DNA of 64,000 nt from Halobacteriovorax sp. Its GTDB lineage: Bacteria; Bdellovibrionota; Bacteriovoracia; Bacteriovoracales; Bacteriovoracaceae. Under the pieces are notes generated by a model that was not told the origin of the DNA, did no database searches, and worked only from the letters and a program-made list of their open reading frames with translations. This document shows positions 16,367-45,182 of the stretch, piece by piece. The stretch covers positions 1-64,000 of the forward strand of contig PBCC01000080.1 in the NCBI GenBank assembly GCA_002716825.1, given 5' to 3'. Every line of letters begins with the position of its first letter. The first letter of the stretch is position 1. The translations under genes and the position numbers were made by a program.

Positions 16367-17220
16367 ATATTATCTTGGGAACCGTCCAGTTTGGGCTCGA
16401 CTATGGTATTCTTGGCAGAGGCTTGCCCAGCGAAGATGATTGCAAGCAAATGATGAGTTTTGCTCACGAGAATCACATTAGAACTTTAGACAGCGCCATT
16501 GCTTATGGTCTTGCTCATGAGCGTATTGCTAGCTTTCATCTGAAGTCCTCCAGTAAATTCAATATAATTACAAAATTTCACTCAAGTGACATTAATGGCA
16601 GTCTAAGGTCTTTTTTGGTCGATTTGTGTTCAGAGTTAAATGTTACAAGACTGAGTTGTTTAATGTTTCATTCATTTACCGATTACGAGCTTAATAGGTC
16701 TATTGCTGTAGATCTGGTGGAGCTAGGGGATCTTGTTGAGCGGGTGGGGGTCTCAGTTTATGGCCTTGATGAGGCGCTTGTAGTAGAAGGCGATCCGTGT
16801 ATTCAGGTTATACAAATGCCTTTTAACTTATTTTATCTAGGTCGTAGGGAAGACGACTTTCTTTCTTCAAAAAACAGGCGGTGCGATCTCCACATTCGAT
16901 CAGTTTACGCTCAAGGGTTAGTATTTGCAGGTTCAAATTCTCAAATAAAGAAGCTACCTGTTCAGTTGCAAGAGGCAGTTTTTAAAATTCAGGAGGTTTG
17001 CAATACATATTCCATGAACATTGGGGCACTTGCTCTTCACGTTGTACGTGCAAGGCTTTCTGATCGTGACGCAATGTTGGTAGCAGCTGATGGTCTCGAC
17101 CAATTAAAGGAAACTGTTAGAATTCTAAATGAAGAGTCATCAGACCCACCGTTGGAGCTAATAACTGAAATTGTATCAAGCGTTCCAGTCTTGGATCTTG
17201 ATCCAAGGAGTTGGCCTTGA
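16363..17220 (+). CDS. Aldo/keto reductase family protein
   Basis: A 285-residue NAD(P)H-dependent reductase fold. The N-terminal GTVQFGLDYGI matches the AKR group found in nonulosonate and flagellin-glycan clusters. The catalytic tetrad region is visible as TLDSAIAYGLAHERI (Asp, Tyr), and LMFHSF carries the histidine strand; FNIITKFHS supplies the lysine. It overlaps the methyltransferase by 4 bases and the following fusion gene by about 4 bases. It probably reduces a sugar carbonyl in the pathway encoded around it; the substrate is not readable. Confidence 0.8.
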   Translation: MNIILGTVQFGLDYGILGRGLPSEDDCKQMMSFAHENHIRTLDSAIAYGLAHERIASFHLKSSSKFNIITKFHSSDINGSLRSFLVDLCSELNVTRLSCLMFHSFTDYELNRSIAVDLVELGDLVERVGVSVYGLDEALVVEGDPCIQVIQMPFNLFYLGRREDDFLSSKNRRCDLHIRSVYAQGLVFAGSNSQIKKLPVQLQEAVFKIQEVCNTYSMNIGALALHVVRARLSDRDAMLVAADGLDQLKETVRILNEESSDPPLELITEIVSSVPVLDLDPRSWP

Positions 17221-19310: not shown

Positions 19311-20325
19311 ATAGACGCAATAGCTCATCGATCTTTCCGGATACATTCATGCCCTTGCTATTTATGGAGTAAAGCTCCCTAGTCCTTACGTCACTTGCTA
19401 ATTGCAAAATCTGCTTCGAAATATGGACCGGATTAATGTCCTCAATCTTACCGATATAATTATGAATTTTTGATTCGTACAAGCTTTTTGCAACAGGTTC
19501 TTGATTGCTGGCAATAGTTACGACTATACCAGGAATGCCAAAGAAGCACCTCTCCCAGACAGTACTACCACTTGCACTAATAAAAATGTCAGCGCTGATA
19601 AGGTACTCATGAAAGCTATTGGAGGCTCTTGATATCTCTAGTCCCTTGATTTTTTTGGTTATAATTCTTTCAGCATGCAGATTTGAATGGCCCATGATCA
19701 ACCTCCCTTTGAACGAACTTGGGAGGATTTGGAATGCATCAATAAACTTTTGGCTAGCATTTAAGTGATCACTTCCTCCAAAAAAAGCCAGAATATTTTT
19801 TGCACAAGCAGGTTGTGGCTTATGGACATATTGATGTTCAAAGTTGGTGAGTGCGTACTCAGGACCGAGGAATAGGTCCTTGTATCGCTCAGGAGCCTTA
19901 AACTTCGATCTATGATCAGTATGAAAGTTTTGGTCTAGTATGTACGAGTCCGGGGCGTGATCGCGAAACAAATCATCGATAACTAAAACTTCCTTCACGA
20001 AAGATTGTAGAGAAGTTTCCCAGTCGATATTTAGCTCGTAATGATCTAAAACAAGCCAGTTCGGATTAAGCTCCTTAAGTATGGTGGTCATTTGGTCAAG
20101 CTCATCATCCCAGCGAAACTCTGAGGGCTGTGGGCAGTCAAGTTCTACAAGTGTATGTCCCTGATTTTCTATTATAAAGTTTTGATTCCCTGAAAGTTTC
20201 CGACAAACAAAATATACGATATAACCAAGCTTGCTTAGTTTGTTGGCTAGATTTAAACATCGAGATTGGTGTCCAGCGCCGATTTCGAAAGATGAATCGC
20301 ATCTAAAAATAACTCTTGGTGTCAT
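19294..20325 (-). CDS. pseG: UDP-2,4-diacetamido-2,4,6-trideoxy-altropyranose hydrolase
   Basis: Removes UDP from the bis-acetamido altrose intermediate of pseudaminic acid synthesis. A 343-residue GT-B-like hydrolase: the N-terminal FRCDSSFEIGAGHQSRCLNLA contains the catalytic-loop histidine, LVLDHYELN and VLVIDDLFRDHA follow, then the donor-side loop AFFGGSDHLN and ISASGSTVWER. It is inserted against the direction of its neighbours. Its 3' end overlaps the fusion gene by 17 bases and its ATG lies two bases from the ATG of pseH on the other strand, so its promoter must lie inside pseH or beyond. Confidence 0.88.
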   Translation of the reverse strand: MTPRVIFRCDSSFEIGAGHQSRCLNLANKLSKLGYIVYFVCRKLSGNQNFIIENQGHTLVELDCPQPSEFRWDDELDQMTTILKELNPNWLVLDHYELNIDWETSLQSFVKEVLVIDDLFRDHAPDSYILDQNFHTDHRSKFKAPERYKDLFLGPEYALTNFEHQYVHKPQPACAKNILAFFGGSDHLNASQKFIDAFQILPSSFKGRLIMGHSNLHAERIITKKIKGLEISRASNSFHEYLISADIFISASGSTVWERCFFGIPGIVVTIASNQEPVAKSLYESKIHNYIGKIEDINPVHISKQILQLASDVRTRELYSINSKGMNVSGKIDELLRLFKCTS

Positions 20326-20792: not shown

Positions 20793-21474
20793 ATATATTA
20801 TAGCTTGTGTACATGAATGGAATATTCAATTCTTTCAAGAATATTTTGGAGCGAATTCTAACTTTGTTCTGATATCGAAGCCTGAAGAGCTCACGATTGA
20901 TAGACTTGATCAAGTTAATCCACGCTACATATTTTTCCCGCATTGGTCCTGGATTGTGCCTGATGATATTGTTCAAAAATTCGAATGTATTTGCTTTCAT
21001 ATGACTGACCTGCCATACGGAAGAGGTGGGAGCCCTTTGCAAAACTTAATCTTACATAAAAAACAAGAGACCATGCTTTCTGTAATTAAGATGACCTCAG
21101 TCCTTGATGAGGGACCAATTTATATGAAGGTAAAAGTCTCCCTTAAGGGAAGGGCTGAGGAAATTTACAGGAACGTTTCCAGGGTAAGCTTTGACCTCAT
21201 TAAGCATATGGTCGAGGTAGGCAAGTTAACGCATTATCCTCAGTCAGGTCAGGTTGTTAAATTTCGAAGGCGAAAACCTTCCGAAAGTGAGCTATTCTTT
21301 AAAGGCAAGTCTTTGGAGGATGTATATGACTTCATTAGAATGTTAGATTCTCCTGGTTATCCACACGCATTCATAAATATAGATAATTTTAAAATATCGT
21401 TTTCTCATGTATCAATCGATCAAAAAACCAAATCGATCAACGGTAACTTTAAATTGTCCTTACGAGGTGAGTAA
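20785..21474 (+). CDS. Formyltransferase-family protein (methionyl-tRNA formyltransferase-like)
   Basis: A 229-residue relative of folate-dependent formyltransferases. The active-site segment reads CFHMTDLPYGRGGSPLQN, and the Asp-containing VLDEGPIYMK follows about 45 residues later. The usual Asn before the catalytic His is replaced by Cys here. It is too short for a tRNA formyltransferase, and its place between pseH and a PIG-L deacetylase points to N-formylation of an amino sugar or nonulosonate, which is inference. It overlaps the neighbours on both sides (8 bases and 1 base), so it is part of one operon with them. Confidence 0.75.
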   Translation: MSKYIIACVHEWNIQFFQEYFGANSNFVLISKPEELTIDRLDQVNPRYIFFPHWSWIVPDDIVQKFECICFHMTDLPYGRGGSPLQNLILHKKQETMLSVIKMTSVLDEGPIYMKVKVSLKGRAEEIYRNVSRVSFDLIKHMVEVGKLTHYPQSGQVVKFRRRKPSESELFFKGKSLEDVYDFIRMLDSPGYPHAFINIDNFKISFSHVSIDQKTKSINGNFKLSLRGE

Positions 21475-22151
21475 TGAGAGTTTTGGCAGTGGTGGCGCAC
21501 CCTGATGATGAGGTTTTGGGCTGTGGGGGGACACTTTCCTTGCATGCAAAGCGAGGCGATGATGTGGGAGTTGTTACTTTGACGAACGGTGTTTCTGCTC
21601 GTGAAGGGTCCACAGAGATAGAGGCAAGCTGTAGAGAAAAAATGCTTGAGAGAAGTTGTGAAAATTTAGGAGTTATACTTAAGGCGAGATTTGACTACCC
21701 AGACAATGGGCTAGACTCTGTGCCATTAATAAATATTATTCGATCTTTAGAAAGTGTTCTCTTTGAGTTCAGACCGGAGCTTGTGTACACCCACTTTTCT
21801 GGTGATTTAAATGTTGACCACAGAATTGTTAATCAAGCTGTATTGACGGCTTGTCGCCCAACACCCAGTGAATCGGTGGAAGAAATTCGAGCATTTGAGG
21901 TTGTTTCAAGCACACATTGGAACGGGGGAGGTAATCTATTTAACCCAAATCTTTTTATCGATATCTCTGAAGCTAAAGAAGTTAAAAGAAAAAGTATCGA
22001 AATTTATAGAGAGGAGTTTCGACCATTTCCTCACCAGAGATCAATAGAGGCAGTTGAAGCATTAGAACTCATGAGGGGAACGTCTGTAGGCGTCAGTTAT
22101 GCTGAAGCCTTCTCTATCATTAGAAAAGTTTGCAAGTTGAGTCGTATATGA
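21474..22151 (+). CDS. PIG-L family deacetylase
   Basis: A zinc-dependent N-deacetylase of the LmbE/PIG-L family, 225 residues. The metal-binding start is VVAHPDDEVLGCGGTL, and the third ligand lies in HFSGDLNVDHRIVNQAV. Such enzymes remove acetyl groups from GlcNAc-type sugars, and several act on sugars in nonulosonate clusters. Adjacent to a formyltransferase, it suggests swapping an N-acetyl for an N-formyl group. Its ATG overlaps the previous TAA by one base, and its own TGA overlaps the PseI ATG (ATGA). Cytoplasmic; no signal peptide. Confidence 0.85.
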   Translation: MRVLAVVAHPDDEVLGCGGTLSLHAKRGDDVGVVTLTNGVSAREGSTEIEASCREKMLERSCENLGVILKARFDYPDNGLDSVPLINIIRSLESVLFEFRPELVYTHFSGDLNVDHRIVNQAVLTACRPTPSESVEEIRAFEVVSSTHWNGGGNLFNPNLFIDISEAKEVKRKSIEIYREEFRPFPHQRSIEAVEALELMRGTSVGVSYAEAFSIIRKVCKLSRI

Positions 22152-23185
22152 AAATTGGAAAACTAGACACCGCAGAAAGATGTATAATTGTGGCAGAGTT
22201 GTCTGCAAATCATAATGGATCTTTAAAAACAGCTATAGAAACTATCGCCGAAGCAGCTAAAGCAGGTGCGGATGCGATAAAGCTCCAGACCTATACTGCA
22301 GATACAATGACAATTAACTCTGACTCTGAAGACTTTGTTATAAAGAGTGGAACGATTTGGGATGGGCGGAAGCTGTATGAACTATACCAGGAGGCCTATA
22401 CTCCATGGGAATGGCATGAGGAGCTATATCGCATTGCTAGAGAGGAGGGGCTAGAGTGTTTTTCAACTCCTTTTGATAGAACTGCCGTGGACTTTTTAGA
22501 GAGTATAAATAATCCAGTCTACAAGGTCGCATCATTTGAGATAACAGACATACCCTTGTTGAGGTATGTTGCCAGTAAACACAGACCTATAATACTTTCA
22601 AGCGGAATAGCTACAGAGGATGACATTGCTTTGGCGATTGAAACAATTCGTAAAGTTTCAAACGTAGAAATAGGATTGTTGAAATGCACCTCATCCTATC
22701 CAGCCCCTTACGAGGAGGCGAATTTGGCCTTGATAGAACGCTTTAAAAAAGATTTTTCGGTACCGCCTGGAATTTCTGATCACACTCTTGGGCACACGGC
22801 ACCTATTTTATCTGTAGCATTTGGCGCACGAATCATTGAGAAACACTTTATTATAGATCGGAGCATTGGTGGAGCAGATGCCTCGTTTTCGATGAATCCG
22901 ACTGAATTTAAAGCAATGGTTGAGCAGGTGAGAATCGCAGAAAAGCTAATAGGTAGGCAGACCTATGAAGTTACGTCAAAAGCCAGGTCAGGGAGAGTAT
23001 TTTCTCGCTCAATTTATTTCACGCGCGACCTTAAGAAAGGCGAAGTAATAACTGAAGATAGTGTAGCCATTATAAGGCCAGGTCTTGGACTGGCCCCTAA
23101 GTATTATGATCAAATTGTGGGGAAGAAAATGAATGCAGCTGTAACTAGGGGACAAAGAGTGCAGTTGGAGCTTATAGATGAATAG
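22148..23185 (+). CDS. pseI: Pseudaminic acid synthase
   Basis: Condenses 2,4-diacetamido-2,4,6-trideoxy-altrose with phosphoenolpyruvate to give pseudaminic acid. About 345 residues. The NeuB-type barrel shows VAELSANHNGSLKTAI, DAIKLQTYTADTMT, ECFSTPFD, SCGIAT-like ILSSGIATEDDI, KCTSSYPAPYEEANL and DHTLGHTAPI. A C-terminal SAF/antifreeze-like domain begins at SRSIYFTRDLKKGEVI. The YTADTMT and IWDGRKLYELYQEA segments are PseI-like rather than NeuB-like. The ATG at 22148 overlaps the deacetylase stop; a TTG 18 bases earlier is less likely. Confidence 0.92.
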   Translation: MKIGKLDTAERCIIVAELSANHNGSLKTAIETIAEAAKAGADAIKLQTYTADTMTINSDSEDFVIKSGTIWDGRKLYELYQEAYTPWEWHEELYRIAREEGLECFSTPFDRTAVDFLESINNPVYKVASFEITDIPLLRYVASKHRPIILSSGIATEDDIALAIETIRKVSNVEIGLLKCTSSYPAPYEEANLALIERFKKDFSVPPGISDHTLGHTAPILSVAFGARIIEKHFIIDRSIGGADASFSMNPTEFKAMVEQVRIAEKLIGRQTYEVTSKARSGRVFSRSIYFTRDLKKGEVITEDSVAIIRPGLGLAPKYYDQIVGKKMNAAVTRGQRVQLELIDE

Positions 23186-23202: not shown

Positions 23203-24759
23203 GTGAAGAATCAATTTACGGATCTATTCTATTACAATAAATACTTTGAAGAATTTTTAAGTACTTATTATCTAAAAGAGTTAAAAGAAAACCGACTATC
23301 AAGTGTTGAAAACGAGAAAGTTCAGCAGGAACTTGTCGCACTACTGTATTCAGATTTACTTTACGCATACTCTGAGTCAAACATGACTCCCAAGGCTTTC
23401 TTTGGCCAATATAAAACCCAAAAACTAAAAAGAATATGCAAAATAGATTTTCAGAAATACACGTTGAAAATTAGCCTGATAGTTTATCTGAAAAAAATCT
23501 ACTCAGCATTCAGATGTATTAAAAGATTGATACGTTCAGTCTTTCGCAAGCAGCTAGTCAATATTGAAAAGTTTAGAACTTTTACACTGGTGATGGATGA
23601 CCTTTTTCTTGAGCAACGTTTTAAGCAGACTGAAGACTTAACTGATTTCTATAATTTCTTTGACTCTACTTTTGGAGATTCAATTAGCACTAATCGATGC
23701 AACATTATTTGTAGTTCATTTTTCTCTGGTCATGCTTTAAATAATTATTACTTCAGTTCTTCTCCAATATATGATCTAAGTATTTTTTTGCCGCAATCTA
23801 AAGCGCTAGTCTGTGCATTAAAGAGCATATGTCAACTTTTGATATTGATACCGAGGTGTACTTTTAATCCTCGTTTATTATTAATAATTGATGATCTTGT
23901 TGACCAAATATATTTGAGCCAGGTTACTAGGTATCTCGAGATTAGGGAGATAATTGTTACAAATTCAAAATATAATACACAACCACTCTGCCTGAAACAG
24001 AGTTTAACTAAGAAGTATAAATCGTCGATGCTATGGTACTCAGCAAATGCAAAATGGTTTAAGTATAAGCAAGCACCGGACAATTATACATTTAACCCTA
24101 TGTTTAAAAACATCGATGTAGACAACCACTATGTTTGGAACGAAGATCAGTGTTTATGGCTGAAAGATGTAGTCGGATTAAAAGCGAGCTACGAGATTAT
24201 TGGGCCAGTAACATTTAGACCCAAGTATATACTGCCAATTGAAGCTAGAAAATCACATTTTAACATATTTCTATTTGACGTCGCTCCTTTTGCAAATGGT
24301 AAAAATCAGAAGTCAGTTTATGGGAATTCTTATGTATACTACTCCCTTGAAAATTGTAGATCCTTCTTAGGGGACATAGTCGACGCTTTCCAAAAATATA
24401 GTAATGTAACTATACACTTGAAGAATAAGCGCAAGTATACCTCTTACCATTCAGCTGAATATTTACACTTTATTGAGGAACTTGGAGCTTCACAAAAAAT
24501 TGTTCTGCATGATGAGTCGCTAGATGCGGCAAAGCTAATCGCTGAACAAGCCGATTTGGTCTTTTCGATACCCTATACATCAGTTTTTTATATTGCAGAT
24601 CACTATGGAGTTAATTCGGGCTACTATGACCCTTCAGGCAAGCTTGAATTAAATTACTCATTAGGTAAAAAAGGTTTTTTTGTTCAAGGGAAGAAGTCAT
24701 TAGTAAGCTTTGCTGACAGTTATATGGAGAGTTTAAAAAATGACGCTAAAAATTCGTAA
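23203..24759 (+). CDS. Putative surface-polysaccharide biosynthesis protein (PFTS-motif-like)
   Basis: A 518-residue AT-rich gene beginning at a GTG. I recognise no catalytic domain with certainty. The segment VFSIPYTSVFYIADHYGV near residue 450, followed by GYYDPSGKL, resembles the PFTS motif of a surface-carbohydrate family known from Leptospira and others, which probably has a GT-B fold. The N-terminal 150 residues are charged and helical with a basic patch around FRCIKRLIRSVFRK. It lies 17 bases after pseI and overlaps the next gene by 20 bases. A nonulosonate-transfer role is possible but unproven. Confidence 0.55.
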   Translation: MKNQFTDLFYYNKYFEEFLSTYYLKELKENRLSSVENEKVQQELVALLYSDLLYAYSESNMTPKAFFGQYKTQKLKRICKIDFQKYTLKISLIVYLKKIYSAFRCIKRLIRSVFRKQLVNIEKFRTFTLVMDDLFLEQRFKQTEDLTDFYNFFDSTFGDSISTNRCNIICSSFFSGHALNNYYFSSSPIYDLSIFLPQSKALVCALKSICQLLILIPRCTFNPRLLLIIDDLVDQIYLSQVTRYLEIREIIVTNSKYNTQPLCLKQSLTKKYKSSMLWYSANAKWFKYKQAPDNYTFNPMFKNIDVDNHYVWNEDQCLWLKDVVGLKASYEIIGPVTFRPKYILPIEARKSHFNIFLFDVAPFANGKNQKSVYGNSYVYYSLENCRSFLGDIVDAFQKYSNVTIHLKNKRKYTSYHSAEYLHFIEELGASQKIVLHDESLDAAKLIAEQADLVFSIPYTSVFYIADHYGVNSGYYDPSGKLELNYSLGKKGFFVQGKKSLVSFADSYMESLKNDAKNS

Positions 24760-25702
24760 GTTTGTAAATCTGCAACAAGTTAGCTCGATCTTGGCAAAAG
24801 TGGAAGGCGATTTTAAATGTGGTCAGTCACTCTACTCTGAGTCTTACTTCTCATATTTAGAATCCTACTATAATGAAACCTTGATAGATCATTCTTTTAT
24901 TATCGAACGTGATGGAGATACTATTGCAGCTTTTCTTGCCTCTGGTAGCAATGAGTCCGGGGTAATGGAGTTGTATGGTCAACCGTGTCTATGTTTTATG
25001 AGCGGTGTAAAGGCTGATAGAAAGCTTGTGGCGACTCTGTTTAAGGACCAACTGTTATCGCTGTGCCTTAAAGAAAAAGTTAAGCTAAGCTTATTTTTAA
25101 ATTGTGACTACTTGAGATATTTTTTATCAGACTTCTTAGATTTTTTTTCTTTAATTGAATATCATTACATAAACCTACAGCTTGATAACCCTATAACTGA
25201 TGTTAGAAAAAGTTATAGGTCTTTGATAAACTGGGGAAAGCGAAACTTGACCACAGAGGTCTATGGAAGTCATAACTGCACAGTAGAGAATGTAATGAGA
25301 ATGCGTGATTTTCATATTAGTGTCGCTGGTCGTGAAACTCGCCCAAAAAATACTTGGATAAAGCAGTTTGAATCAATTTTGCGTGAAGAAGCCTATATGC
25401 AGCTTGCTTACTATGATGGTGAGCTAGTTGGAGCGAATTTGATAGAAAGTTCCAAAGGAGATTCATATTATTCAGTAGGAGTGTACGATCGCAGCTTAAT
25501 GAAAGCCGGAAAGGCAATGACTCACTTTTTACTATGGAGTGCTGTTGAGCTTTCTCTTGAAAAAAATGCAAAAACTTTTACCTTGGCATTTCAAAGCTCT
25601 AGGAATGAGTTGGAACTCAAAGACGAAACAATACTAAGTTTCAAAAAGGGCTTTTGTAACTCGATTGATTGTCGAGTTGCATGGATTTTTAGCCCGAGAT
25701 GA
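24740..25702 (+). CDS. FemAB/GNAT-like acyl- or aminoacyltransferase
   Basis: A 320-residue protein with the layout of FemAB-type double GNAT domains. The C-terminal half shows MRMRDFHISVAGRETRPKN, the strand AYYDGELVGANLIES and SYYSVGVYDRSLMKAGKAM followed by a helix, as in enzymes that acylate or aminoacylate sugars and peptidoglycan. Location after pseI and the PFTS-like gene suggests modification of a nonulosonate or glycan repeat. Its 3' end overlaps the convergent gene at 25689 by 14 bases. The substrate is unknown. Confidence 0.65.
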   Translation: MTLKIRKFVNLQQVSSILAKVEGDFKCGQSLYSESYFSYLESYYNETLIDHSFIIERDGDTIAAFLASGSNESGVMELYGQPCLCFMSGVKADRKLVATLFKDQLLSLCLKEKVKLSLFLNCDYLRYFLSDFLDFFSLIEYHYINLQLDNPITDVRKSYRSLINWGKRNLTTEVYGSHNCTVENVMRMRDFHISVAGRETRPKNTWIKQFESILREEAYMQLAYYDGELVGANLIESSKGDSYYSVGVYDRSLMKAGKAMTHFLLWSAVELSLEKNAKTFTLAFQSSRNELELKDETILSFKKGFCNSIDCRVAWIFSPR

Positions 25703-26621
25703 TCCTAAGGATTTTTTCAAACTCAGAATCACTAATACCACTATGAACAGGTATGACCCTTCTAGAAATATAAAGGTGCTTAACCTGATCAAATGAAGAA
25801 TTAAAGTGATAGGTGGGTATTCTTTCGTCTTTTGAATCCTCTATGAGAATGGCATTACAGGCTACTCTGTGGTTGCATGTTGGCATGATAACTTTGACCT
25901 GCTTCAATCGAGATAATTGATTGAAGCGAGCTTGGCAGGTTTTTAAGTTTCGGTAATAATTTGGAATATTTTTAAGTATATTTTTGCAGCCTTGAGCAGT
26001 GAGTTTGAAGTTTTCCCATTCTAGGGCGTGCCAGTACTTTAACGCCTCACTATTAATGACCCCTGACTTTTTGAGCTCATCAACCTTAGTTGAAAGCTCA
26101 GTACTTGAAGAGTTAATTATAGACATAATCTCGTCTTTGTAATCGTCATTTTTTAGGATCAAAAGCCCCCCAGAATACGATCCAATCACTTTTGGAAGAG
26201 ATACGACTTCAAAGTCACCATCATTTGGAAAAAGAGCCTTCTCGCTAGTAAGTAAAGAATCGACAGAGTCTTCAATGATAATTGGTCTGGATAGAGAGCT
26301 AAATGTATGCTTGTAGCCCCACTTGTGAACTACGAGACTTAAATCAACATCAGATTCTTGTTCGTATGTTGGATTACTATATCTAGAGATCACATCCCAC
26401 ACACAGTGTGAGCTCCACAAGGGGGCAGAAACTCTTTTTGATCGATTAAACTGCAAAACTTTTAAGATAATCGAGATACATGATCTAGCAGATGGGAGCA
26501 AAAGAGTTTGCTTGTTAAATAGAGTTGAGAAATCATCTTCTATCTTCGCTTTGAGATGTTCAAGACTTAGTGATGAATCAATTATCTCTAGATTCGGTAT
26601 TGGCCACTGATTCAAAGTCAT
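25689..26621 (-). CDS. DegT-like PLP-dependent enzyme, divergent
   Basis: A 310-residue protein, shorter than normal sugar aminotransferases (about 370). It retains recognisable blocks: LLLPSARSCISIILKVL resembles the substrate-side helix, PIIIEDSVDSL matches the Asp that pairs with the PLP pyridine nitrogen, and VSLPKVIGSYSGGLLI has a lysine at the Schiff-base position before a Gly-rich turn. The C-terminal domain is divergent. It may be a real aminotransferase with an unusual substrate. It is last in a six-gene minus-strand operon and overlaps the methyltransferase upstream by 4 bases. Confidence 0.6.
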   Translation of the reverse strand: MTLNQWPIPNLEIIDSSLSLEHLKAKIEDDFSTLFNKQTLLLPSARSCISIILKVLQFNRSKRVSAPLWSSHCVWDVISRYSNPTYEQESDVDLSLVVHKWGYKHTFSSLSRPIIIEDSVDSLLTSEKALFPNDGDFEVVSLPKVIGSYSGGLLILKNDDYKDEIMSIINSSSTELSTKVDELKKSGVINSEALKYWHALEWENFKLTAQGCKNILKNIPNYYRNLKTCQARFNQLSRLKQVKVIMPTCNHRVACNAILIEDSKDERIPTYHFNSSFDQVKHLYISRRVIPVHSGISDSEFEKILRIISG

Positions 26622-27370
26622 CTCTTTGTTATGACAAGATCTTCTCTTGTGTATGAAAACGGGAGAGCGGGGGATTGATATAATATATGGGCTTCATGGC
26701 CAAGTTCTCTGTATTTAGAAATATTATTCATGACGAGGTCATCACATATTTTAGAGTTCATGCATTTTTCTTGTTTAATAAAATCGAACTGATCCTTGTA
26801 AGCAGGTAGCTTGTCTATAGTGGTGTTTCTGTACTTGGCCTCAACTTCTCTGCCTAGACTGGAAGAAAGAAACCGTCCTTTCTTATTAACATTGGGAAGA
26901 TCTCCAATTATAAGCTGTCCATTATCAGCAAGTAGGTCAAAGGCGGCATCAATAAAACTTTGTGGCTCAGAGGTATAATGAATAACAGAGTAAGCGATAA
27001 TTAGATCGAAATTACGTTTGTTGTTATTTAGAAAGTCTTCACAATAAGGAAATACTGCAGGTTCAAATTGAAAGCCTTCAGCATCAAGCTGACTTTTCAA
27101 CTTAGAAATAATCTCAGGTATATCTAGAAAGGTTGTTTTCCAATCTAGACTTCTTGATTCTTTGGCCAGAATCAAAGCGAGTTCTCCTGCACCACAGCCA
27201 ATGTCTAGTACTTTTGCTGAGTTAGGTGGGGATATTTTTGTCTTCAAGTCATTCCATATATGCTCTTCAGTTCCTGTATGATTTTCAAAACGACCAGCAA
27301 TGGTTGTTTTATTAGATTCGTTCGACTTTAACCTGTAAAGTTGCACACTCTTTTTCTGTAATTCATCCAT
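26618..27370 (-). CDS. Class I SAM-dependent methyltransferase
   Basis: A 250-residue cytoplasmic methyltransferase. Motif I is VLDIGCGAGELALILA, followed by FLDIPEI, FDLIIAYSVIHYTSEP (motif II and post-motif II) and LLADNGQLIIGDLP. The substrate is not apparent; the setting suggests a sugar or a biosynthetic intermediate of the operon. It overlaps its upstream neighbour by 8 bases and its downstream neighbour by 4, typical of translational coupling. Confidence 0.82.
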   Translation of the reverse strand: MDELQKKSVQLYRLKSNESNKTTIAGRFENHTGTEEHIWNDLKTKISPPNSAKVLDIGCGAGELALILAKESRSLDWKTTFLDIPEIISKLKSQLDAEGFQFEPAVFPYCEDFLNNNKRNFDLIIAYSVIHYTSEPQSFIDAAFDLLADNGQLIIGDLPNVNKKGRFLSSSLGREVEAKYRNTTIDKLPAYKDQFDFIKQEKCMNSKICDDLVMNNISKYRELGHEAHILYQSPALPFSYTREDLVITKR

Positions 27371-28718
27371 TTTTAGATATTTCCTTAAGTGTGGTGTGAC
27401 AGTTTTTTAGCAAGTCATTGATAAAGAAGCCTTTACCCGAGCCTCTACCAATTAAATGGAAATTGCGAAGTGATCCTTCTAGACTCCTAGCTTGAGTCAT
27501 CTGATTCTTAACAAAGCTTTCTGTTATTTGAGGGAAGCTCGGGCCAACAAATTCATGCTTGCTATTTAATATTTTCGCGCTTGGCGCAATCACTTCTAGG
27601 CTCTTCATTTCCTGAAAAACTTTAGCCTCAACTTTATCTAAGTTATCTTTTATCGATTTATCACTTAGAACTTCAACAGTGATGTTGTGTCTGGGCGCTT
27701 TCGACGTCCTAAGATTCGGGTAAAGAGTAATTCTATAGCTTAGAAAGCTTGGCTCCCAACATAAAAGATAATGTGGAAATGTTTTTAAAATGGGTGTATC
27801 CACTTCAAAGTGAAACAGACTAGTATTAGTAAATCCCGGAGGTGGACTAGGTTGCTGGCCAAGGGCAAGTTGTGCTAGAGCTGCTGGGAGAGACCAAATT
27901 AAATTATCACAATTTAGCAAAGCTCCATCATTTAGCTCAACACTTGTAACTCTTGACTCATTTTGGTTAATTTTTTTTATCGTTCTATCTGTCAGTATCG
28001 TAACTCCCGATGACTTCAGTTGATCAGTTAATAATGAGATCCATTGGCCAATCCCTTGCTCTCCTTTCGGATAATAGTAGCCCAGCGGAGGCGATCCTTC
28101 TGTATACGAATGATATGCAATCTTTGAATCATACTTGGGCTCTTTCTTTAATTCTCTACTTCTTTCGGGCGTGAAGGCTACCACTCTTTGTAAGCCAAAG
28201 AGTCTCAGCAGGTCGCTATGCAAGTCTTCTAATTCTGCTTGAAGTAGCTTTTTAAAGACTGGCCTGTAAACATTTTCAGTAATGGTTGGCCCGAAGGCAT
28301 TGCGCAAAAAAGTGTAAAGGTTAGTGTCATTTGTGTTTGTGGAGGGGAGTGTAAGGAGCTCATCACAGGCTTGAGAGTAGAGATCATTTTCGAGGGTCGT
28401 TATGTCGATTAAGGGGCTGGATCTATTCCATTTCTCATTAAAGTAGTTTTCCGATTTTAGATAGGGGAAAAAATTCCAATGCTTTGATATTTCAGAAGAA
28501 GAGCCAAATAGAATGCCGTCGATTTCTTCCTGACCCGTGAGACCTGGGACATGTGTTCCATAGTCGTAGGCTAAGTTGTTTATTTGAAATGAAGAAAGCA
28601 AGCCGCCAATACTCGAAGACTTCTCAATAATTGTTACATCTTTATATTTTTTTGCCATGAAAATTGCAGCGTAAATGCTTATTATCCCGCCACCAGCTAT
28701 TACAATAGAATCATTCAT
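27363..28718 (-). CDS. FAD-dependent amine-oxidase-like oxidoreductase
   Basis: A 451-residue flavoprotein of the protoporphyrinogen oxidase/UDP-galactopyranose mutase-like group. The N-terminal dinucleotide fold is IVIAGGGIISIYAAIFMAKKY followed by IIEKSSSIGGLLSSF. YDYGTHVPGL resembles the conserved His-containing strand of UGM relatives, and the C-terminal FHLIGRGSGKGFFINDLL closes the FAD site. It may oxidise or isomerise a sugar or sugar-nucleotide. It sits 9 bases after the sugar methyltransferase gene in the same operon. Exact reaction unknown. Confidence 0.7.
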   Translation of the reverse strand: MNDSIVIAGGGIISIYAAIFMAKKYKDVTIIEKSSSIGGLLSSFQINNLAYDYGTHVPGLTGQEEIDGILFGSSSEISKHWNFFPYLKSENYFNEKWNRSSPLIDITTLENDLYSQACDELLTLPSTNTNDTNLYTFLRNAFGPTITENVYRPVFKKLLQAELEDLHSDLLRLFGLQRVVAFTPERSRELKKEPKYDSKIAYHSYTEGSPPLGYYYPKGEQGIGQWISLLTDQLKSSGVTILTDRTIKKINQNESRVTSVELNDGALLNCDNLIWSLPAALAQLALGQQPSPPPGFTNTSLFHFEVDTPILKTFPHYLLCWEPSFLSYRITLYPNLRTSKAPRHNITVEVLSDKSIKDNLDKVEAKVFQEMKSLEVIAPSAKILNSKHEFVGPSFPQITESFVKNQMTQARSLEGSLRNFHLIGRGSGKGFFINDLLKNCHTTLKEISKNG

Positions 28719-28727
28719 TTTAACTCC

Positions 28728-29651
28728 CTAGCTCTCTAGCTGCTTCTCAACTTTTGCGAAAACATGATCAATTTGTCCGTCGAAATTGCGCCAGAAAGGC
28801 GGTTTTCCAATAGGGAATTTTTGATACCAGGGGCATGTCGATTTGTGCAAGATTTTGAATCCGCTCCAAGGATAGTGATGTATCTTAGTCACTTCTCCGT
28901 CCGGTAGGGTTTTATTTACTCGATTGCAGCAATAAAAGTATTTATCGCTGGCAGGGTTTCTTTTAATTAAGTCAAAGTAATTATTAATGACTGTATTATT
29001 CATCTCTTGCATAGAAGCAATGTTTACAAAAAGTTCAATGTTAAATTTTTCAATTAAGTGGTAGTTTTCAGCAGGTAAAAAATAAAAATCAGCTTCTCCG
29101 GTGCTTTCTTCCGTAACATAAGTCGTATTAAATCGTGTACTTACTTGATTTGTGTAATATGAGTCAAACAATAATGTTCTTCCAAGGTTAACACTTAAAA
29201 TTTTAATGTGGGGATACTTTAGCTTTAACATAGAGCCAAAAAATCCATAGCCATCGCCAATAATACAAACAGTCTTAATGGCTTCGATAGAGATATAGCT
29301 CTCAATAAGATCTAGTGATAAAGCTTGTTTAACACAGTCGAAATCGAAATATCTCATGTTTCTTTTTGCAACAGTTTTAGCTGCTGAGAGACTGCTTTGC
29401 TTCGCCCGATATTTGTTTATTAAAAAATCGGTTAGTATTGATTCAATAATATATTTTACCTTAATCTTTAAACTATTTTCTCGAAAAGAACCAAAGCCCC
29501 ACCCTGACAGTTTTATTTTCTTTTCGCTTGTAAGTGCGGCTCTGTGTCCGCCAACCTCTTGCCAGTGGCTTGATGTGACGTCAGAAGAGAACTCCTTTTG
29601 ATAGAAATCTTCAAATATTTTGATGCTTGTATGATCAATAGATTGGTTCAA
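28728..29651 (-). CDS. Putative sugar O-methyltransferase
   Basis: A 307-residue protein resembling putative sugar O-methyltransferases of surface-polysaccharide clusters. SSHWQEVGGHRAAL near residue 30 and GWGFGSFREN are early conserved stretches. A degenerate SAM-binding turn VCIIGDGYGFFGSML follows, then ILSVNLGRTLLFD and VNIASMQEMNNTVINNYF. No signal peptide. Neighbouring sialyltransferase-like and radical SAM genes overlap or abut it, so the group likely decorates one sugar. Assignment rests on the overall pattern, with moderate certainty. Confidence 0.55.
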   Translation of the reverse strand: MNQSIDHTSIKIFEDFYQKEFSSDVTSSHWQEVGGHRAALTSEKKIKLSGWGFGSFRENSLKIKVKYIIESILTDFLINKYRAKQSSLSAAKTVAKRNMRYFDFDCVKQALSLDLIESYISIEAIKTVCIIGDGYGFFGSMLKLKYPHIKILSVNLGRTLLFDSYYTNQVSTRFNTTYVTEESTGEADFYFLPAENYHLIEKFNIELFVNIASMQEMNNTVINNYFDLIKRNPASDKYFYCCNRVNKTLPDGEVTKIHHYPWSGFKILHKSTCPWYQKFPIGKPPFWRNFDGQIDHVFAKVEKQLES

Positions 29652-30376
29652 ACTTTCTCCTTCTCGATTTGAAATAATCCACTTTTTTTATTCCAAAACA
29701 ACGTATTTAAGCCTATCTCTCTCGCGGCAAGAAGTGGAAGGGAGTTGTATCCAATCCAGTTGCGAAAATATGAAAAGGCTTCGGCTAAGTCTCCTTCCCA
29801 CAGTTTAACGTGTTTGGAGTTTATTATATCAAAGGGGAGATCCTGTTCCTCCCTCGGGTGGCGCTTAATGAATAAGAGGCATTCTTTTTCCCTTACTAGC
29901 TCTATTGCTTCTCTAATTAGTGCATGTTGATTGAGAGAATAATCACCCCTGTCTTCAATTAGAGGCTGAGATATAAAGATGTAATCATGATTCTTGTTTG
30001 AATTTGTATGCAGATGATTTAGAGCAAACTTTGTAAACAGACTTCTACACTTGTAAACTCTTCTGTTTGTTATTTTAAAAGGGGAAATGATTATCTGAAT
30101 AGGGATGCTTTGAAGTAGTTCATCTAGGTCACTGAAATATTGATGGTTTAAGTCTGTTAGAAGAATGTACCGATGTGGAATTACACACTTTTTTAGTTGC
30201 TTAAGTGAGTCTATTGTCGGCGAGGGAGACAGTAGTACTGTTGATATATTTTCAAGGACATTAATGGATTCTATTGTGTGAACCGTTCTCGTCGGCATAC
30301 ATAAAGCAATGTATTGGCTAACAAACTCAGCGTAAGATGAGTTGTTGAGATGGAATATCGCTTCTTTTGCCTTCAT
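29648..30376 (-). CDS. Putative nonulosonate transferase (polysialyltransferase-like)
   Basis: A 242-residue protein with GT-B-like features of bacterial sialyltransferases. IFISQPLIEDRGDYSLNQ resembles the acidic D/E-D/E-G region, LLFIKRHPREE carries the HP motif used to bind CMP, and NWIGYNSLPLLAAREIG resembles the serine motif. The N-terminal half is divergent. If real, it would be the natural user of the CMP-nonulosonate made by this locus. It overlaps both neighbours by 4 bases. No membrane span is visible. Confidence 0.5.
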   Translation of the reverse strand: MKAKEAIFHLNNSSYAEFVSQYIALCMPTRTVHTIESINVLENISTVLLSPSPTIDSLKQLKKCVIPHRYILLTDLNHQYFSDLDELLQSIPIQIIISPFKITNRRVYKCRSLFTKFALNHLHTNSNKNHDYIFISQPLIEDRGDYSLNQHALIREAIELVREKECLLFIKRHPREEQDLPFDIINSKHVKLWEGDLAEAFSYFRNWIGYNSLPLLAAREIGLNTLFWNKKSGLFQIEKEKV

Positions 30377-31611
30377 TCCATCTTAAAGTCAGCCAGAGTG
30401 TTAGGTGACTTCATGATATCTTCAGCCGTGCGATTTTGGTGCTTCGGATTAGTTGAAATCACCATGGCATCATTTCTCTCGCACAGTTGATCACAGTTAT
30501 TACAGTACGGAACCTTTTCGAATTTTTTCGTGTTATGAGACTCCCTGAGAGCTTCGTAGGCAGACCCACGAAGAACTTCTTCGACAGTCTGTTGAGCAAC
30601 GTTTCCTAGTGGGATCTCTTCATTGTAGTCATAGCAGCAAGGGACAACAATGCCTTTCCAGTTAATTTGAATCGGTCCAGAATTTGGACGGCCACAGCTC
30701 TTCTTTTCGGTTTTTATTTCGCGGTAACCACGACCGTCACCAAAATTATGTGGTCGCCACACTTCAATGTAGTCTGCAAATGGTCTTGTGTATTCAAGAA
30801 AGTCATTCATCTCTTTTGATTGAGACGTTTTGTCTTTGTTGAACTCGAGGAAGAACATTGATATTTCTGGACTCTTGATTTTTTGCTTTGTCGTAGGGGA
30901 GATAATATCTTGCCCAAATTTAGCGCGCATCTCAGCGGCCATTTTGATATTAGCCTCTGTTTGCTCAAACTTTCCGCCAACCATTACGCTTTCATAAACT
31001 TCTTTCGTAGCGCCGTAAAAACTCAGTCTAATTTCTGTTAGGCCTGCTTTAATTGCGGCCTCAATCTTGGTCATTTTTTGACCAGAGTCTTTGGCAAACT
31101 TACTTTTTGATGGAAGGTGAAACAACGATGCGTTAGTTATTAGGTAGGTTCTTAAACCTTTTTGTGTAGCATAGTGAATTTTATCTTCTAGTGTCGGGTC
31201 GATAAAAGGCTCGCCGAAGTTTACTAAAGTGATTTGGGTCGCACCCATGGTGATAACTTCATCAACTACGCTATAGTAGAATGGCATAGGCATATAGCCT
31301 TTGAATCGATCGTGCTCTTCGCGAGGACACATTGTGCATGTGTAGTTACAAAGATTAGTTGGCTCGATTCTTACTTCTGGATTCTTTAGCTTTAGTACCT
31401 CAGATGGGTTCTTGATTCGAGATTCTACCGCTGTTCTAAGTGGAAACTCTGGAGAACCGCCTTTGCCATAATCTGGGTCTAGCGCGTTCCAATGGGGCGA
31501 AGGGACGATATCGTATACGACAGATCCTGCCTTAGCCTTAGCAACAAGGGCTGACTGATTGGCCTTAGTTGGATCGAGATTTACAATTGCCTCTTCTTGG
31601 CCATTATTCAC
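30373..31611 (-). CDS. Radical SAM/SPASM domain protein
   Basis: A 412-residue radical SAM enzyme. The 4Fe-4S cluster motif is C88-x3-C92-x2-C95 in CNYTCTMC. A TIM-barrel core follows, with NFGEPFIDP (GE motif). The C-terminal SPASM region has CGRPNSGPIQ, VVPCCYDYNEE and PYCNNCDQLCE, cysteine-rich ligands for auxiliary clusters. SPASM enzymes modify peptides or sugars, for example dehydrogenation or epimerisation. It is the first gene of the six-gene minus-strand operon. The 5' gap to pseB (198 bases) holds the divergent promoters. Confidence 0.85.
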   Translation of the reverse strand: MNNGQEEAIVNLDPTKANQSALVAKAKAGSVVYDIVPSPHWNALDPDYGKGGSPEFPLRTAVESRIKNPSEVLKLKNPEVRIEPTNLCNYTCTMCPREEHDRFKGYMPMPFYYSVVDEVITMGATQITLVNFGEPFIDPTLEDKIHYATQKGLRTYLITNASLFHLPSKSKFAKDSGQKMTKIEAAIKAGLTEIRLSFYGATKEVYESVMVGGKFEQTEANIKMAAEMRAKFGQDIISPTTKQKIKSPEISMFFLEFNKDKTSQSKEMNDFLEYTRPFADYIEVWRPHNFGDGRGYREIKTEKKSCGRPNSGPIQINWKGIVVPCCYDYNEEIPLGNVAQQTVEEVLRGSAYEALRESHNTKKFEKVPYCNNCDQLCERNDAMVISTNPKHQNRTAEDIMKSPNTLADFKME

Positions 31612-31809: not shown

Positions 31810-32874
31810 ATGATTTTTGAAGGCAAAAAAGTATTAGTTACTGGAGGAACTGGCTCGATGGGCAAGATGTTTGTCCAGCGTGTTTTAAGCGGAGAGCAAG
31901 GCACACCCAAAAAAGTAATTATCTTATCGCGCGATGAAGCGAAGCAGCATGATTTAAGAGTCTCATACATGAATCGAATCGTCGGAATGGACGAGGCTGT
32001 ATATAGAAACTTTCAAAATGTACTTGAATTTAGAATCGGAGATGTACGTAATTATCAGGATGTCTGCTCTGCCGTAAAAGACGTAGATATCGTAGTTAAC
32101 GCTGCTGCATTAAAGCAGGTGCCGACCTGTGAATACTTTGCATATCAAGGTGTTATGACCAATTGTCTTGGAGCACATAATATCGTTCAGGCGATCCTCG
32201 AGCATGGATACAATGTTGAAACCGTTGTTGGCATTTCAACAGACAAAGCGGCCAAGCCTGTGAACGTAATGGGAATGACAAAAGCGATTCAGGAGCGAAT
32301 TTTTACATCAGCTAATATATTGAACAAAAAAACTCGTTTCGTTTGTGTGCGTTATGGAAATGTATTGGCTTCACGTGGGTCAGTAATTCCACTTTTTCAC
32401 AAACAAATTCAAGCCGGTGGCCCAGTGACAATTACTGTACCTGAGATGACACGCTTTTTACTTAACCTAAATGAGGCAGTGGACACAGTATTTGCTGCAA
32501 TTGCGCATGCAGAGGCAGGGGAAACATTTATTCCAATCGCTCCATCTGCAACAGTAGAAAACATAGCGAAAGCTCTGGTTGGCGACAGGGATATTGAAAT
32601 TAGAATCACAGGTATTAGGCCTGGTGAGAAGATGCATGAAATATTGATATCAGATGAGGAGATGCATCACACAGTAAAACGTGGGAACTATTACGCGATC
32701 AAGTCTATGCTTCCTGAACTAAATGATCTCGATAAGTCTGACTTTAAAATGGTGATGGAGAACGAATATAGCTCTAAAGATCACTCACTTAATTACGAAG
32801 ATACGAAACTTCTATTGGAAAGGAATGGTCTTTTGGAGCTGCACGATGATAGCTCTGGAGAGTTAATCCGATAG
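31810..32874 (+). CDS. pseB: UDP-GlcNAc 4,6-dehydratase (C5-inverting)
   Basis: First step of pseudaminic acid synthesis, giving UDP-2-acetamido-2,6-dideoxy-L-arabino-hexos-4-ulose. A soluble 354-residue SDR with GGTGSMGKMFVQRVL, ILSRDEAKQHDLR, FRIGDVRNYQDV, AAALKQVPTCEY and the modified active site STDKAAKPVNVMGMTKA. These are FlaA1/PseB hallmarks; lack of membrane spans separates it from the CapD-type gene at 38 kb. AGGA lies about 8 bases before the ATG. It is divergent from the radical SAM operon and followed by a transferase-like gene. Confidence 0.92.
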   Translation: MIFEGKKVLVTGGTGSMGKMFVQRVLSGEQGTPKKVIILSRDEAKQHDLRVSYMNRIVGMDEAVYRNFQNVLEFRIGDVRNYQDVCSAVKDVDIVVNAAALKQVPTCEYFAYQGVMTNCLGAHNIVQAILEHGYNVETVVGISTDKAAKPVNVMGMTKAIQERIFTSANILNKKTRFVCVRYGNVLASRGSVIPLFHKQIQAGGPVTITVPEMTRFLLNLNEAVDTVFAAIAHAEAGETFIPIAPSATVENIAKALVGDRDIEIRITGIRPGEKMHEILISDEEMHHTVKRGNYYAIKSMLPELNDLDKSDFKMVMENEYSSKDHSLNYEDTKLLLERNGLLELHDDSSGELIR

Positions 32875-32886: not shown

Positions 32887-34371
32887 TTGAATCAAACTAA
32901 ACTAGCCCAGGAAGTCTCACAGATTGTTGTAGAGGTTGCCAAGTCCAGAGGTGATTTATGGTGGGCTTTTTCCTTTTCTTCTAAAAATCGATTTTACGCT
33001 CCATTATTTCAAATTTTCAAACCAGCTAGACTTAAGCTTAGCTGGTTTGAAACGCTTGTGAGTGCACTGAAGTTTATTTTCGCCTTTACTGTAAAGGTGT
33101 TACTTACCCGTCTTAACAATGGCAGTAAATTTCGAAAAATTAAGCTACATAAAAATGTGGTGGTCATAAAGACATTCTCATTTGAAAAATCAAACTATGA
33201 GGATTTCGTCGACCCTTTTTTCCCGGGGTTGAGTCTGTGGCTAGAATCTAAAGGGAAGGAAGTTCTAACTTTTTACGAGCCAACAGGTAGCTTGAGCTCG
33301 GTTTGTAGAAAAAATAAAAACCAACAGATGATTGGCTTTTACGATGTTGCTCAGTTTTACGACTTACTTCTAGTTCTGACTGATGTGATGAAAAGTTTTG
33401 CATTTTCTTTTTTTGACTCATTAGATATCAAGAGTAGCAATGTAGATAAAGCTAGCCTGAATAAACTAGTTATGTATGAGCACTTTTCGCCTGCAACATT
33501 GCAGGCAAGACTAAATTATTACATTTATAAGAGGTTGATAAACAAAACTAGAATAGAGCGATTTATCTATACTTATGAAAATAACTCTTGGGAGCGGATG
33601 GCCTTACTAGCAATCAAAGAGAAACCAGAAATCAAAACTATTGGATATCAGCATAACGTATTGCCTCAGGCTTCGATAAATATGTATTTAAGCCCTCAAG
33701 AAAGTCAGGTTTCTCCTTGTCCTGACAACGTCTTAACTACAGGGGAAAGAACGAGAGATATCTTGTTAAGTAAGTCTGCTCTGAGTAAAGAAAGTATCCT
33801 GGTAGCCTGTGCATTACGATACGACTACTTGTTTAAAATGAAGGCATTTCCCCGCAATAAGAATAAGGTTGCCTTATTGGCCCTCGAGGGAGTTTGGCAG
33901 GTGCTTCCCATCCTTGAAAAATTAAACGATATCTCCACCTCTCTTGGTGACTGGAAGATAATAATTCGATGTCACCCGGTCCTCCCAATTGAAAAAATGT
34001 CGGAACAATTAAGCTTTAACTATAAGGAAACCGAACAGTTCCTGGTTTCAAAAGATGTCAGTCTAATTGAAGATATTGAGAGGTCTTCGTCAGTTATATA
34101 TTGGGGAAGCACCGTCGGTCTGGAGTCAGTGAAATTAGGAAGACCTGTTGTTAACATTGCTTATGGTGAATTAAATTTTGATCCCTTATACGAACTGAGT
34201 CAATTTAAGTCGTCCTGGGGTTTTGATAACTTTTTGAGAGATGTTTTAGAGTCAATTATTAGCATTGATGATGAAGAATACTTTAAACAATTGCGTGTTG
34301 CGAATGGCTACATCGATACATACTTCAAAGAGGTTAACGAAGATAACTTAGAGGTCTTTTTACAGCCTTAG
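32887..34371 (+). CDS. Putative capsule/surface polysaccharide glycosyltransferase (GT-B-like)
   Basis: A 494-residue protein starting at a TTG 12 bases after pseB. The C-terminal half resembles KpsS/KpsC-like or CDP-glycerol-type GT-B domains: IKTIGYQHNVLPQA, then WKIIIRCHPVLPIEKM and the serine/glutamate motif VIYWGSTVGLESVKLGRPV. HP and S/T motifs of this kind bind CMP-sugars in Kdo and sialic acid transferases. The N-terminal part has a hydrophobic helix around FAFTVKVLL. It may transfer a nonulosonate. It abuts the convergent gene at 34372 exactly. Confidence 0.55.
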   Translation: MNQTKLAQEVSQIVVEVAKSRGDLWWAFSFSSKNRFYAPLFQIFKPARLKLSWFETLVSALKFIFAFTVKVLLTRLNNGSKFRKIKLHKNVVVIKTFSFEKSNYEDFVDPFFPGLSLWLESKGKEVLTFYEPTGSLSSVCRKNKNQQMIGFYDVAQFYDLLLVLTDVMKSFAFSFFDSLDIKSSNVDKASLNKLVMYEHFSPATLQARLNYYIYKRLINKTRIERFIYTYENNSWERMALLAIKEKPEIKTIGYQHNVLPQASINMYLSPQESQVSPCPDNVLTTGERTRDILLSKSALSKESILVACALRYDYLFKMKAFPRNKNKVALLALEGVWQVLPILEKLNDISTSLGDWKIIIRCHPVLPIEKMSEQLSFNYKETEQFLVSKDVSLIEDIERSSSVIYWGSTVGLESVKLGRPVVNIAYGELNFDPLYELSQFKSSWGFDNFLRDVLESIISIDDEEYFKQLRVANGYIDTYFKEVNEDNLEVFLQP

Positions 34372-42176: not shown

Positions 42177-43107
42177 TAAATTAAAAAACAAAACGATTCT
42201 AATAACTGGTGGGACTGGCTTTTTTGGTAAAGTCCTTATTGATTTCTTTTTTAATCTTAATGAAGAGCATAACTTAAATTTACAGTTAATCGTAACTGCT
42301 CGCAGTGTACTTAAAGATGATCGAATTAAATTTCTAGCTCATGACATTAAGGAGCCATTGGTAATTGATGAAAAGATCGACTTTATTATTCATGCGGCGA
42401 CGCCGGTTGCTAACGATGCTTCTTCCCCAGATCATTTGCTCGAAGTCATAGTTAATGGAACGCAAAACGTACTGAATTTTGCTCATGAAAATAAAATTAC
42501 AAAATTGATCAATATTAGCTCCGGGGCAGTTTATGGGACTCAGCCCAAAGAGCTTTCTAAGCTTGATGAGTCCTATGCCTCTAAAGTCAGTGTCTATGAA
42601 CCAACAAATATCTACGGCAGTGGTAAGCGTATTGCAGAAAACTTAGTCACGAAATTTTGCAGGGAACATGGCATCAGCTATCTTACGCTTCGGTGCTTTG
42701 CCTTTTCAGGAGAGTATCTACCGCAAAATGCTCAGTTCGCTATTGGCAACTTCGTAAGAGATGCGAAGAAAGATGGCGTTATTAAGATAAAGGGTGATGG
42801 CTCGGCAATCCGATCTTACCTTGATAGTAATGATATGGCGGAGTGGGTTCTTGCGGCGCTACTATCTGATGAAACAGACAAAAACTATAATCTTGGCTCA
42901 GAGCATGAGGTAACCATTCTTCAACTTGCTGAAATCATAGCGGGTCTTATCCCAAGTACTAAGATCGAAGTTGAGAACAAATTGAGCGCAAATATTAAAA
43001 CAAATAGGTATATTCCGGATGTTAGCAAGATTATGAGCGAACTTGGCGTGACACAAAAAGTCAGCCTTAAGAATTCAATAGAAAAAATGATTAAATTTGA
43101 GAGTTAA
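42169..43107 (+). CDS. CDP-hexose reductase/epimerase (RfbJ/RfbS-like SDR)
   Basis: A 312-residue extended SDR with [48 protein letters not shown] and the catalytic [14 protein letters not shown], where the Tyr and Lys lie four residues apart. It resembles CDP-abequose/paratose synthases, which reduce the 4-keto group of CDP-4-keto-3,6-dideoxyhexose; an epimerase role is also possible. It starts at a TTG that overlaps the rfbG stop by 8 bases and lies just before rfbH. The stereochemistry of the product cannot be read. Confidence 0.75.
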
Positions 43108-43109
43108 GA

Positions 43110-45172: not shown

Positions 45173-45182
45173 ATTAAGTCTA

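Follow-up and report, generated by a model that had tools for sequence, protein, structure and literature searches.

What does a radical S-adenosylmethionine (SAM) enzyme do among the genes of a bacterial surface glycan? The question is raised by contig PBCC01000080.1 (assembly GCA_002716825.1), of which we analysed positions 1 to 64,000, hereafter the window. It belongs to an uncultivated Halobacteriovoraceae assembly (74% complete), and its surface-glycan locus holds an operon of six minus-strand open reading frames (ORFs) at 31611-25689, which encode, in transcription order, a radical SAM enzyme (rSAM), a putative glycosyltransferase (ST), a NanM-type sugar O-methyltransferase, a flavin adenine dinucleotide (FAD) enzyme, a second methyltransferase (MT2) and a short pyridoxal phosphate (PLP) enzyme (Table 1). 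We lean, if only slightly, towards the view that these enzymes tailor a pseudaminic-type nonulosonate (NulO), or the sugar attached to one, as part of a surface polysaccharide or of the glycan of a glycoprotein. This reading builds on what was observed: how the genes are arranged, the families and cofactor residues of their products, the NulO genes around them, and the reappearance of at least two modules in other phyla. Judged from gene content, the new element appears to be that a BtrN-like radical enzyme and a TIGR04422/FAD/MT2 module are repeatedly associated with NulO loci. We found no published account of this association in the open-licence papers searched, and no paper among them linking radical SAM with nonulosonic acid or mentioning TIGR04422.

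Structure of the operon

All ORFs and junctions were re-read, and the overlapping six-gene minus-strand operon described in the original prediction is real. The prediction gave five of the six genes as overlapping a neighbour; its 9-base gap and its overlaps of 4-8 bases are correct, whereas the overlaps occupy four of the five junctions and involve all six genes. The rSAM/ST (30373-30376), ST/NanM (29648-29651) and MT2/PLP (26618-26621) junctions are 4-base overlaps and the FAD/MT2 junction is an 8-base overlap (27363-27370), while the gap between the NanM and FAD genes (28719-28727) has GGAG inside it. In addition, the 3' end of the PLP gene overlaps a convergent FemAB-like gene tail to tail by 14 bases (25689-25702). 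The rSAM gene has a GTG start with a Shine-Dalgarno-like AAAGGA upstream, and the NanM gene a TTG start with AAGGAG. Each of the six ORFs has at least one homologue in another genome, and therefore none is a chance frame. Promoter and terminator scans returned sites no more numerous than in shuffled sequence.

The radical SAM enzyme resembles BtrN

The Radical_SAM domain (PF04055) scores 36.5 in rSAM against a cut-off of 29.5, and the motif CX3CX2C (C88/C92/C95) is invariant in ten aligned sequences. In the C-terminal part of the same alignment, C306, C325, C326, C370 and C373 are likewise invariant, and C377 is lost in distant members. Profile comparison against solved structures gave BtrN as the best match (E = 5e-19, both domains aligned), followed by DesII (1.6e-8) and then MoaA; all four auxiliary-cluster cysteines of BtrN align with C306, C325, C370 and C373 of rSAM. 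The seven conserved cysteines of a full SPASM domain with two auxiliary clusters were not found. From the cysteine pattern and the BtrN match, rSAM is therefore of the twitch type rather than a two-cluster SPASM protein, so that the proposed radical SAM enzyme stands, but with one auxiliary cluster and not several.

BtrN and DesII both act on sugars or cyclitols, and the simplest guess for rSAM is that it oxidises a substrate of this kind. BtrN, the 2-deoxy-scyllo-inosamine dehydrogenase of the butirosin pathway, shares with rSAM an alignable SAM core and a domain with one four-cysteine auxiliary cluster, whereas rSAM has a conserved N-terminal extension and inserts and lies in a NulO/polysaccharide locus. 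In BtrN the reaction is a two-electron alcohol oxidation that converts an aminocyclitol to a ketone, with the four-cysteine auxiliary cluster as the probable electron acceptor (PMC9012708). The occurrence of a PLP enzyme and decorating enzymes near rSAM also recalls BtrN and its aminotransferase partner in aminoglycoside clusters, although rSAM is not always accompanied by a PLP enzyme.

Alternatively, rSAM might be a maturase of a peptide or metalloenzyme, unrelated to sugars, as its top NCBIfam matches are maturases (TIGR04317 at 61 bits, and TIGR04311), all far below their cut-offs. We consider this very improbable: the closest solved structures are the sugar/cyclitol enzymes BtrN and DesII, the full two-cluster SPASM cysteine set is missing, and rSAM lies among glycan genes in the window, in two other members of the family (G071 and G156) and in Methylophaga (G323).

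The homologues in G071 and G156 are 73% and 76% identical to rSAM, respectively; more distant ones, at ~42% identity, occur in gamma- and betaproteobacteria, Omnitrophota and Elusimicrobia. A clade at 29-32% identity recurs in Chlamydiae (Simkaniaceae, Rhabdochlamydiaceae and Parachlamydiales; L029-L038). Between genera, rSAM (73-76%) and the dehydratase divergent from it (81%) are far better conserved than the adjacent genes, at only 24-30%, a contrast that suggests recent transfer of, or strong constraint on, rSAM and the dehydratase.

The PLP enzyme and its companions

The PLP enzyme has no Pfam match, and its score against PF01041 (DegT/DnrJ/EryC1) lies below gathering. Profile comparison aligned it with PseC/DegT proteins (probability 96%, E = 1e-9), with D118 and K144 at the positions of the conserved Asp and catalytic Lys, and an AlphaFold2 model of moderate quality (pLDDT 62) matched sugar aminotransferases in Foldseek (E ~1e-6). 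Together with the TIGR04422 score, this agrees with the short DegT-like protein originally proposed, and the fold model and residue pattern indicate that the protein probably functions as a sugar aminotransferase despite its reduced length. A FemAB-like gene adjoins the PLP gene in four loci (the window, G071, G323 and the gammaproteobacterium G469). The NCBI models TIGR04422 and TIGR04421 (PLP_IMCC1989 and FemAB_IMCC1989), here compared by name only, carry in their names neither a function nor a link to FAD, MT2 or NulO genes. With TIGR04417 (PFTS) they describe proteins found here, where the PLP and PFTS proteins pass and FemAB is a relative. Some members thus fall into families for which NCBI models already existed: TIGR04422, TIGR04371 and the neighbouring TIGR04417 score above cut-off, and TIGR04421 below.

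The FAD enzyme belongs to the PPO/UDP-galactopyranose mutase (UGM)/amine-oxidase superfamily by Pfam and profile matches, in line with the amine-oxidase-like enzyme first proposed. The profile matches comprise PPO, carotene desaturase and UGM; UGM aligns at E ~1e-9 over 340 residues, and PPO and carotene desaturase score as well or better. FAD homologues stand beside PseI in G323 and G469. Both methyltransferases of the original prediction were recovered, namely NanM (TIGR04371) and MT2 (PF08242 and others), the latter of a generic type but marked by a distinctive LPFSxTREDL motif in its C-terminal part. A NanM homologue, 40% identical, lies two genes from rSAM in Methylophaga, and the overlapping MT2-PLP pair also occurs in G085 (MT2 40%) and G469 (29%).

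ST comes immediately after rSAM in each of the three Halobacteriovoraceae loci and has the conserved motifs SQPLxED, HPRE and W(I/V)GxxS. Against the polysialyltransferase and GT52 Pfam models it scores 19.8 (gathering 23.3) and 15.9 (26.1), and its G156 homologue 21.7 and 19.2; two of three ST homologues match both PF07388 and PF07922 below threshold. The fold model is poor (pLDDT 53) and gave no Foldseek match below 0.001. The suggested CMP-nonulosonate transferase therefore holds as a similarity at sub-threshold level, but not as membership of either family.

Recurrence in other genomes

A second genome with all six genes was not found in any genome searched, and the idea of a six-gene set conserved as a unit was rejected. 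Subsets do recur in NulO loci across phyla. In G071, rSAM is followed by ST (24%) and is divergent from the same dehydratase; the adjoining operon encodes RmlD-PseC, an aldo/keto reductase (AKR), GSAM, FemAB, PLP and PseI, so that rSAM-ST and FemAB-PLP flank one Pse operon. Downstream of PseG in this operon (L004:6268-9564) lie genes for an L-amino-acid-ligase-like ATP-grasp protein, an amidohydrolase, a methyltransferase and an RraA-like protein, which may be an alternative decoration cassette. In G156, rSAM and ST adjoin a TIGR04326-like gene, and in G085 the MT2 and PLP (32%) genes overlap by 8 bases beside PseG- and PseI-like genes.

The Methylophaga locus of ~25 kb holds both modules together with Pse genes. 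Within 20 kb it encodes NanM, rSAM (42%), FAD (32%) and PLP (TIGR04422 at 267 bits), and the stretch comprises NanM, rSAM, TIGR04326-like, RmlD, PseB, PseC, PseI, FAD, PseG, FemAB, PLP, GNAT, AKR, GSAM and PFTS. In G469 the order is PseB-PseC-AKR-PseF-GSAM-PseG-PseI-FAD-hexapeptide transferase, continued by DegT-WbqC-like-LmbE-MT2-PLP-FemAB-FAD-Maf and then by apparent flagellar genes including flagellins, as read from the sequence. The Maf flagellin glycosyltransferase (L051:3003-5180) adjoins the second FAD homologue (31%) and the flagellar genes, a neighbourhood that would link the enzyme set to flagellin glycosylation in G469. In the plasmid collection there were no matches for FAD, PLP (two homologues), MT2 or NanM, and rSAM had relatives at only 23-25%; among viral contigs, MT2 matched generic methyltransferases only and FAD nothing.

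Strong PLP matches occurred in 2 of 321 gammaproteobacterial genomes, FAD in 2 of 303 and rSAM in 1 of 303, the samples possibly not being exactly the same genomes. PLP and FAD fall in the same two genomes, one of which is also the genome with rSAM. This coincidence is meaningful because the families are rare in the sampled gammaproteobacteria; the samples are small and the counts ignore phylogeny. At the level of the Bdellovibrionota, PLP and rSAM were each found in 3 of 291 genomes, and FAD in 2 of 129 family members, one at 25% identity. These counts bear on the view that the region is an ordinary hypervariable O-antigen region, in which horizontally acquired sugar enzymes have gathered at random and have neither a shared product nor any unusual chemistry. 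The whole window is indeed a locus of the O-antigen type, in which many sugar genes are unrelated to one another, and the genes in question are mostly absent from related genomes; nevertheless, two rare families coincide exactly in the same two of ~300 genomes, and the MT2-PLP, PLP-FemAB and rSAM-ST adjacencies are repeated in different genera or phyla. We regard a random collection as unlikely.

Several observations weigh against a common tailoring role of the six enzymes. A convincing PLP homologue is missing in 7 of the 8 rSAM-bearing genomes checked, and G085 has PLP without rSAM. Most distant rSAM loci have no PseI homologue within 10 kb, and mostly a TIGR04326-like gene rather than Pse genes. 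Moreover, the ST assignment is putative, resting below threshold with a poor fold model; the superfamily of the FAD enzyme spans very different chemistries, with no closer assignment; and the BtrN match does not fix the reaction of rSAM, for which deamination, epimerisation and deoxygenation are open alternatives. As co-occurrence is not obligate, we take the operon to consist of two or more modules brought together within a NulO locus. These would be rSAM with its glycosyltransferase, and MT2-PLP with FemAB and FAD. The original prediction of one discrete new system is thereby replaced by separable modules within larger NulO loci, with other locus genes on both strands outside 25689-31611. 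One refuting outcome named in that prediction, a scatter of homologues without common neighbours, did not occur.

The same separation makes it possible, with some doubt, that two unrelated cassettes were joined by recombination in a variable O-antigen locus and share only co-transcription, rSAM-ST(-NanM) acting on a non-NulO repeat-unit sugar and FAD-MT2-PLP(-FemAB) on the NulO. The modules separate cleanly in other genomes, rSAM of betaproteobacteria, Omnitrophota and Elusimicrobia stands with a TIGR04326-like glycosyltransferase and without PseI, and the identity of rSAM (73-76%) relative to its neighbours (~25-30%) points to different histories. By contrast, the Methylophaga locus unites both modules and the Pse genes, and in G071 rSAM-ST and FemAB-PLP lie on either side of one Pse operon. 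We therefore retain, at the modest strength given above, tailoring of a pseudaminic-type NulO or a sugar linked to it.

The surrounding nonulosonate locus

The plus-strand genes before the operon encode a pseudaminic-type pathway, with PseG on the minus strand. Compared with pseudaminic acid (PseB-C-H-G-I-F) O-antigen/flagellin loci, the window shares PseC, PseG and PseI above cut-off and PseB/PseF-like genes, and the homologous G469 locus ends at Maf and flagellar genes. The window differs in the additional rSAM, FAD, MT2, short PLP enzyme, FemAB and LmbE, in the fused RmlD-PseC and PseF-GSAM proteins, and in a dehydratase below the PseB cut-off. The 81% identical homologue in G071 is likewise divergent from rSAM, and this gene order suggests that the dehydratase fills the PseB role. 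Directly after it lies a TIGR04326-like gene, the commonest rSAM neighbour elsewhere (downstream of rSAM in 7 of 12 distant loci).

Table 1. Predicted genes of the operon and of the adjacent nonulosonate locus
Feature	Position	Strand	Evidence
RmlD-like reductase fused to PseC aminotransferase	13334..15439	+	TIGR03588 487 bits (cut-off 423.5); TIGR01214 118 bits, below cut-off
SpsF/PseF-like cytidylyltransferase fused to class III aminotransferase (GSAM-like)	17211..19310	+	PRK06209 527 bits (cut-off 486)
PseG	19294..20325	-	TIGR03590 200 bits (cut-off 153.6)
LmbE/PIG-L-like deacetylase	21474..22151	+	BshB1 family match below cut-off
PseI, pseudaminic acid synthase	22148..23185	+	TIGR03586 477 bits (cut-off 340)
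FemAB-like acyl/aminoacyltransferase, convergent, recurrent partner of PLP gene	24740..25702	+	TIGR04421 72 bits, below cut-off 250
PLP enzyme, short DegT-like, 310 aa, TIGR04422 member	25689..26621	-	TIGR04422 89.1 bits (cut-off 75)
MT2, class I SAM methyltransferase, 250 aa	26618..27370	-	PF08242 and others
FAD enzyme, PPO/UGM/amine-oxidase superfamily, 451 aa	27363..28718	-	PF13450, PF00070, PF01593 above cut-off
NanM-type sugar O-methyltransferase, 307 aa	28728..29651	-	TIGR04371 68.5 bits (cut-off 44)
ST, putative GT-B, CMP-NulO transferase-like, 242 aa	29648..30376	-	PF07388, PF07922 sub-threshold; motifs
rSAM, BtrN-like, 412 aa, one auxiliary [4Fe-4S] (twitch/SPASM-like) domain	30373..31611	-	PF04055, PF13186 above cut-off; profile; Cys pattern
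PseB/FnlA-like NDP-sugar 4,6-dehydratase, divergent from rSAM	31810..32874	+	TIGR03589 295 bits, below curated cut-off 408
TIGR04326-like putative glycosyltransferase	32887..34371	+	48 bits, below cut-off 250

In G469 the N-terminal half of the cytidylyltransferase-GSAM fusion has a counterpart encoded by a gene of its own, at 37% identity, and the RmlD-PseC fusion also occurs in G071 (L004:15810-17918); the two fusions may hint at an additional amino group on the NulO. PseG interrupts an otherwise plus-strand Pse operon and overlaps both neighbours by 10-17 bases. An LmbE-like homologue (47%) lies immediately upstream of MT2-PLP-FemAB in G469. The window locus also has an AKR gene, a PFTS protein (TIGR04417 at 159 bits, cut-off 100) and an ORF whose sequence reads as formyltransferase-like and which matched no model at the threshold used. 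Farther on, at 41139-47821, are RfbG/RfbH/RfbF-type CDP-3,6-dideoxyhexose genes (RfbH model 680 bits, cut-off 423), with an apparent split transketolase (ORFs 46119-47024 and 47024-47821) after them on the opposite strand; the two together possibly make a branched 3,6-dideoxy sugar.

Two other assignments were rejected. The sfmABCDE flagellin modification genes of Shewanella (PMC3765264) resemble those of the present loci in that they are tailoring genes specific to a species and lie close to Maf and to a synthase of the NeuB type; however, the gene products differ, as they comprise NeuB, a thiamine pyrophosphate enzyme, a short-chain dehydrogenase/reductase, a methyltransferase and an ATP-grasp protein, with no rSAM, FAD or PLP counterpart. 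A defence function was dismissed because the PADLOC matches (mad2, pVip) are at superfamily level only.

Proposed function and implications

The phrase 'unusual decorated glycan or modified nonulosonate' in the original prediction is still the best reading, given the surface-glycan and NulO context and the shared NulO neighbours in other phyla. In the route that we infer, with its substrates, step order and product, rSAM and the PLP enzyme would act on the same molecule. The neighbouring Pse genes would build the nine-carbon sugar, and rSAM would abstract hydrogen from a carbinol carbon and pass an electron to the auxiliary cluster, forming a ketone. The DegT-like PLP enzyme could convert such a ketone to an amine, and acylation of this amine might fall to the convergent FemAB-like protein or to other acyltransferases. 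Two SAM methyltransferases, one of them the NanM-type O-methyltransferase, would add methyl groups, the PPO/UGM-type FAD enzyme might serve as an oxidoreductase or a ring mutase, and the GT-B transferase would attach the product. No Maf was found in the window's own genome, where the search control was also silent and the assembly is incomplete; therefore, the carrier could be either flagellin or polysaccharide.

More tentatively, and with doubt on our part, these loci may represent a radical SAM branch of NulO glycan biosynthesis common to Bdellovibrionota and Gammaproteobacteria. In such a branch a BtrN-like enzyme would oxidise an unactivated C-OH of the sugar, and transamination, methylation and acylation would follow. 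If so, aminoglycoside-style chemistry would have entered the surface or flagellin glycans of bacteria. The structures of nonulosonates are deduced from the genes present, and the BtrN-like rSAM, TIGR04422 PLP enzyme, PPO/UGM-like FAD enzyme, MT2 and FemAB would mark NulO loci for which the rules now in use do not predict the product. The NCBI hypothetical families TIGR04422 and TIGR04421 would thereby gain a testable context in NulO tailoring, once at a flagellin glycosylation island.

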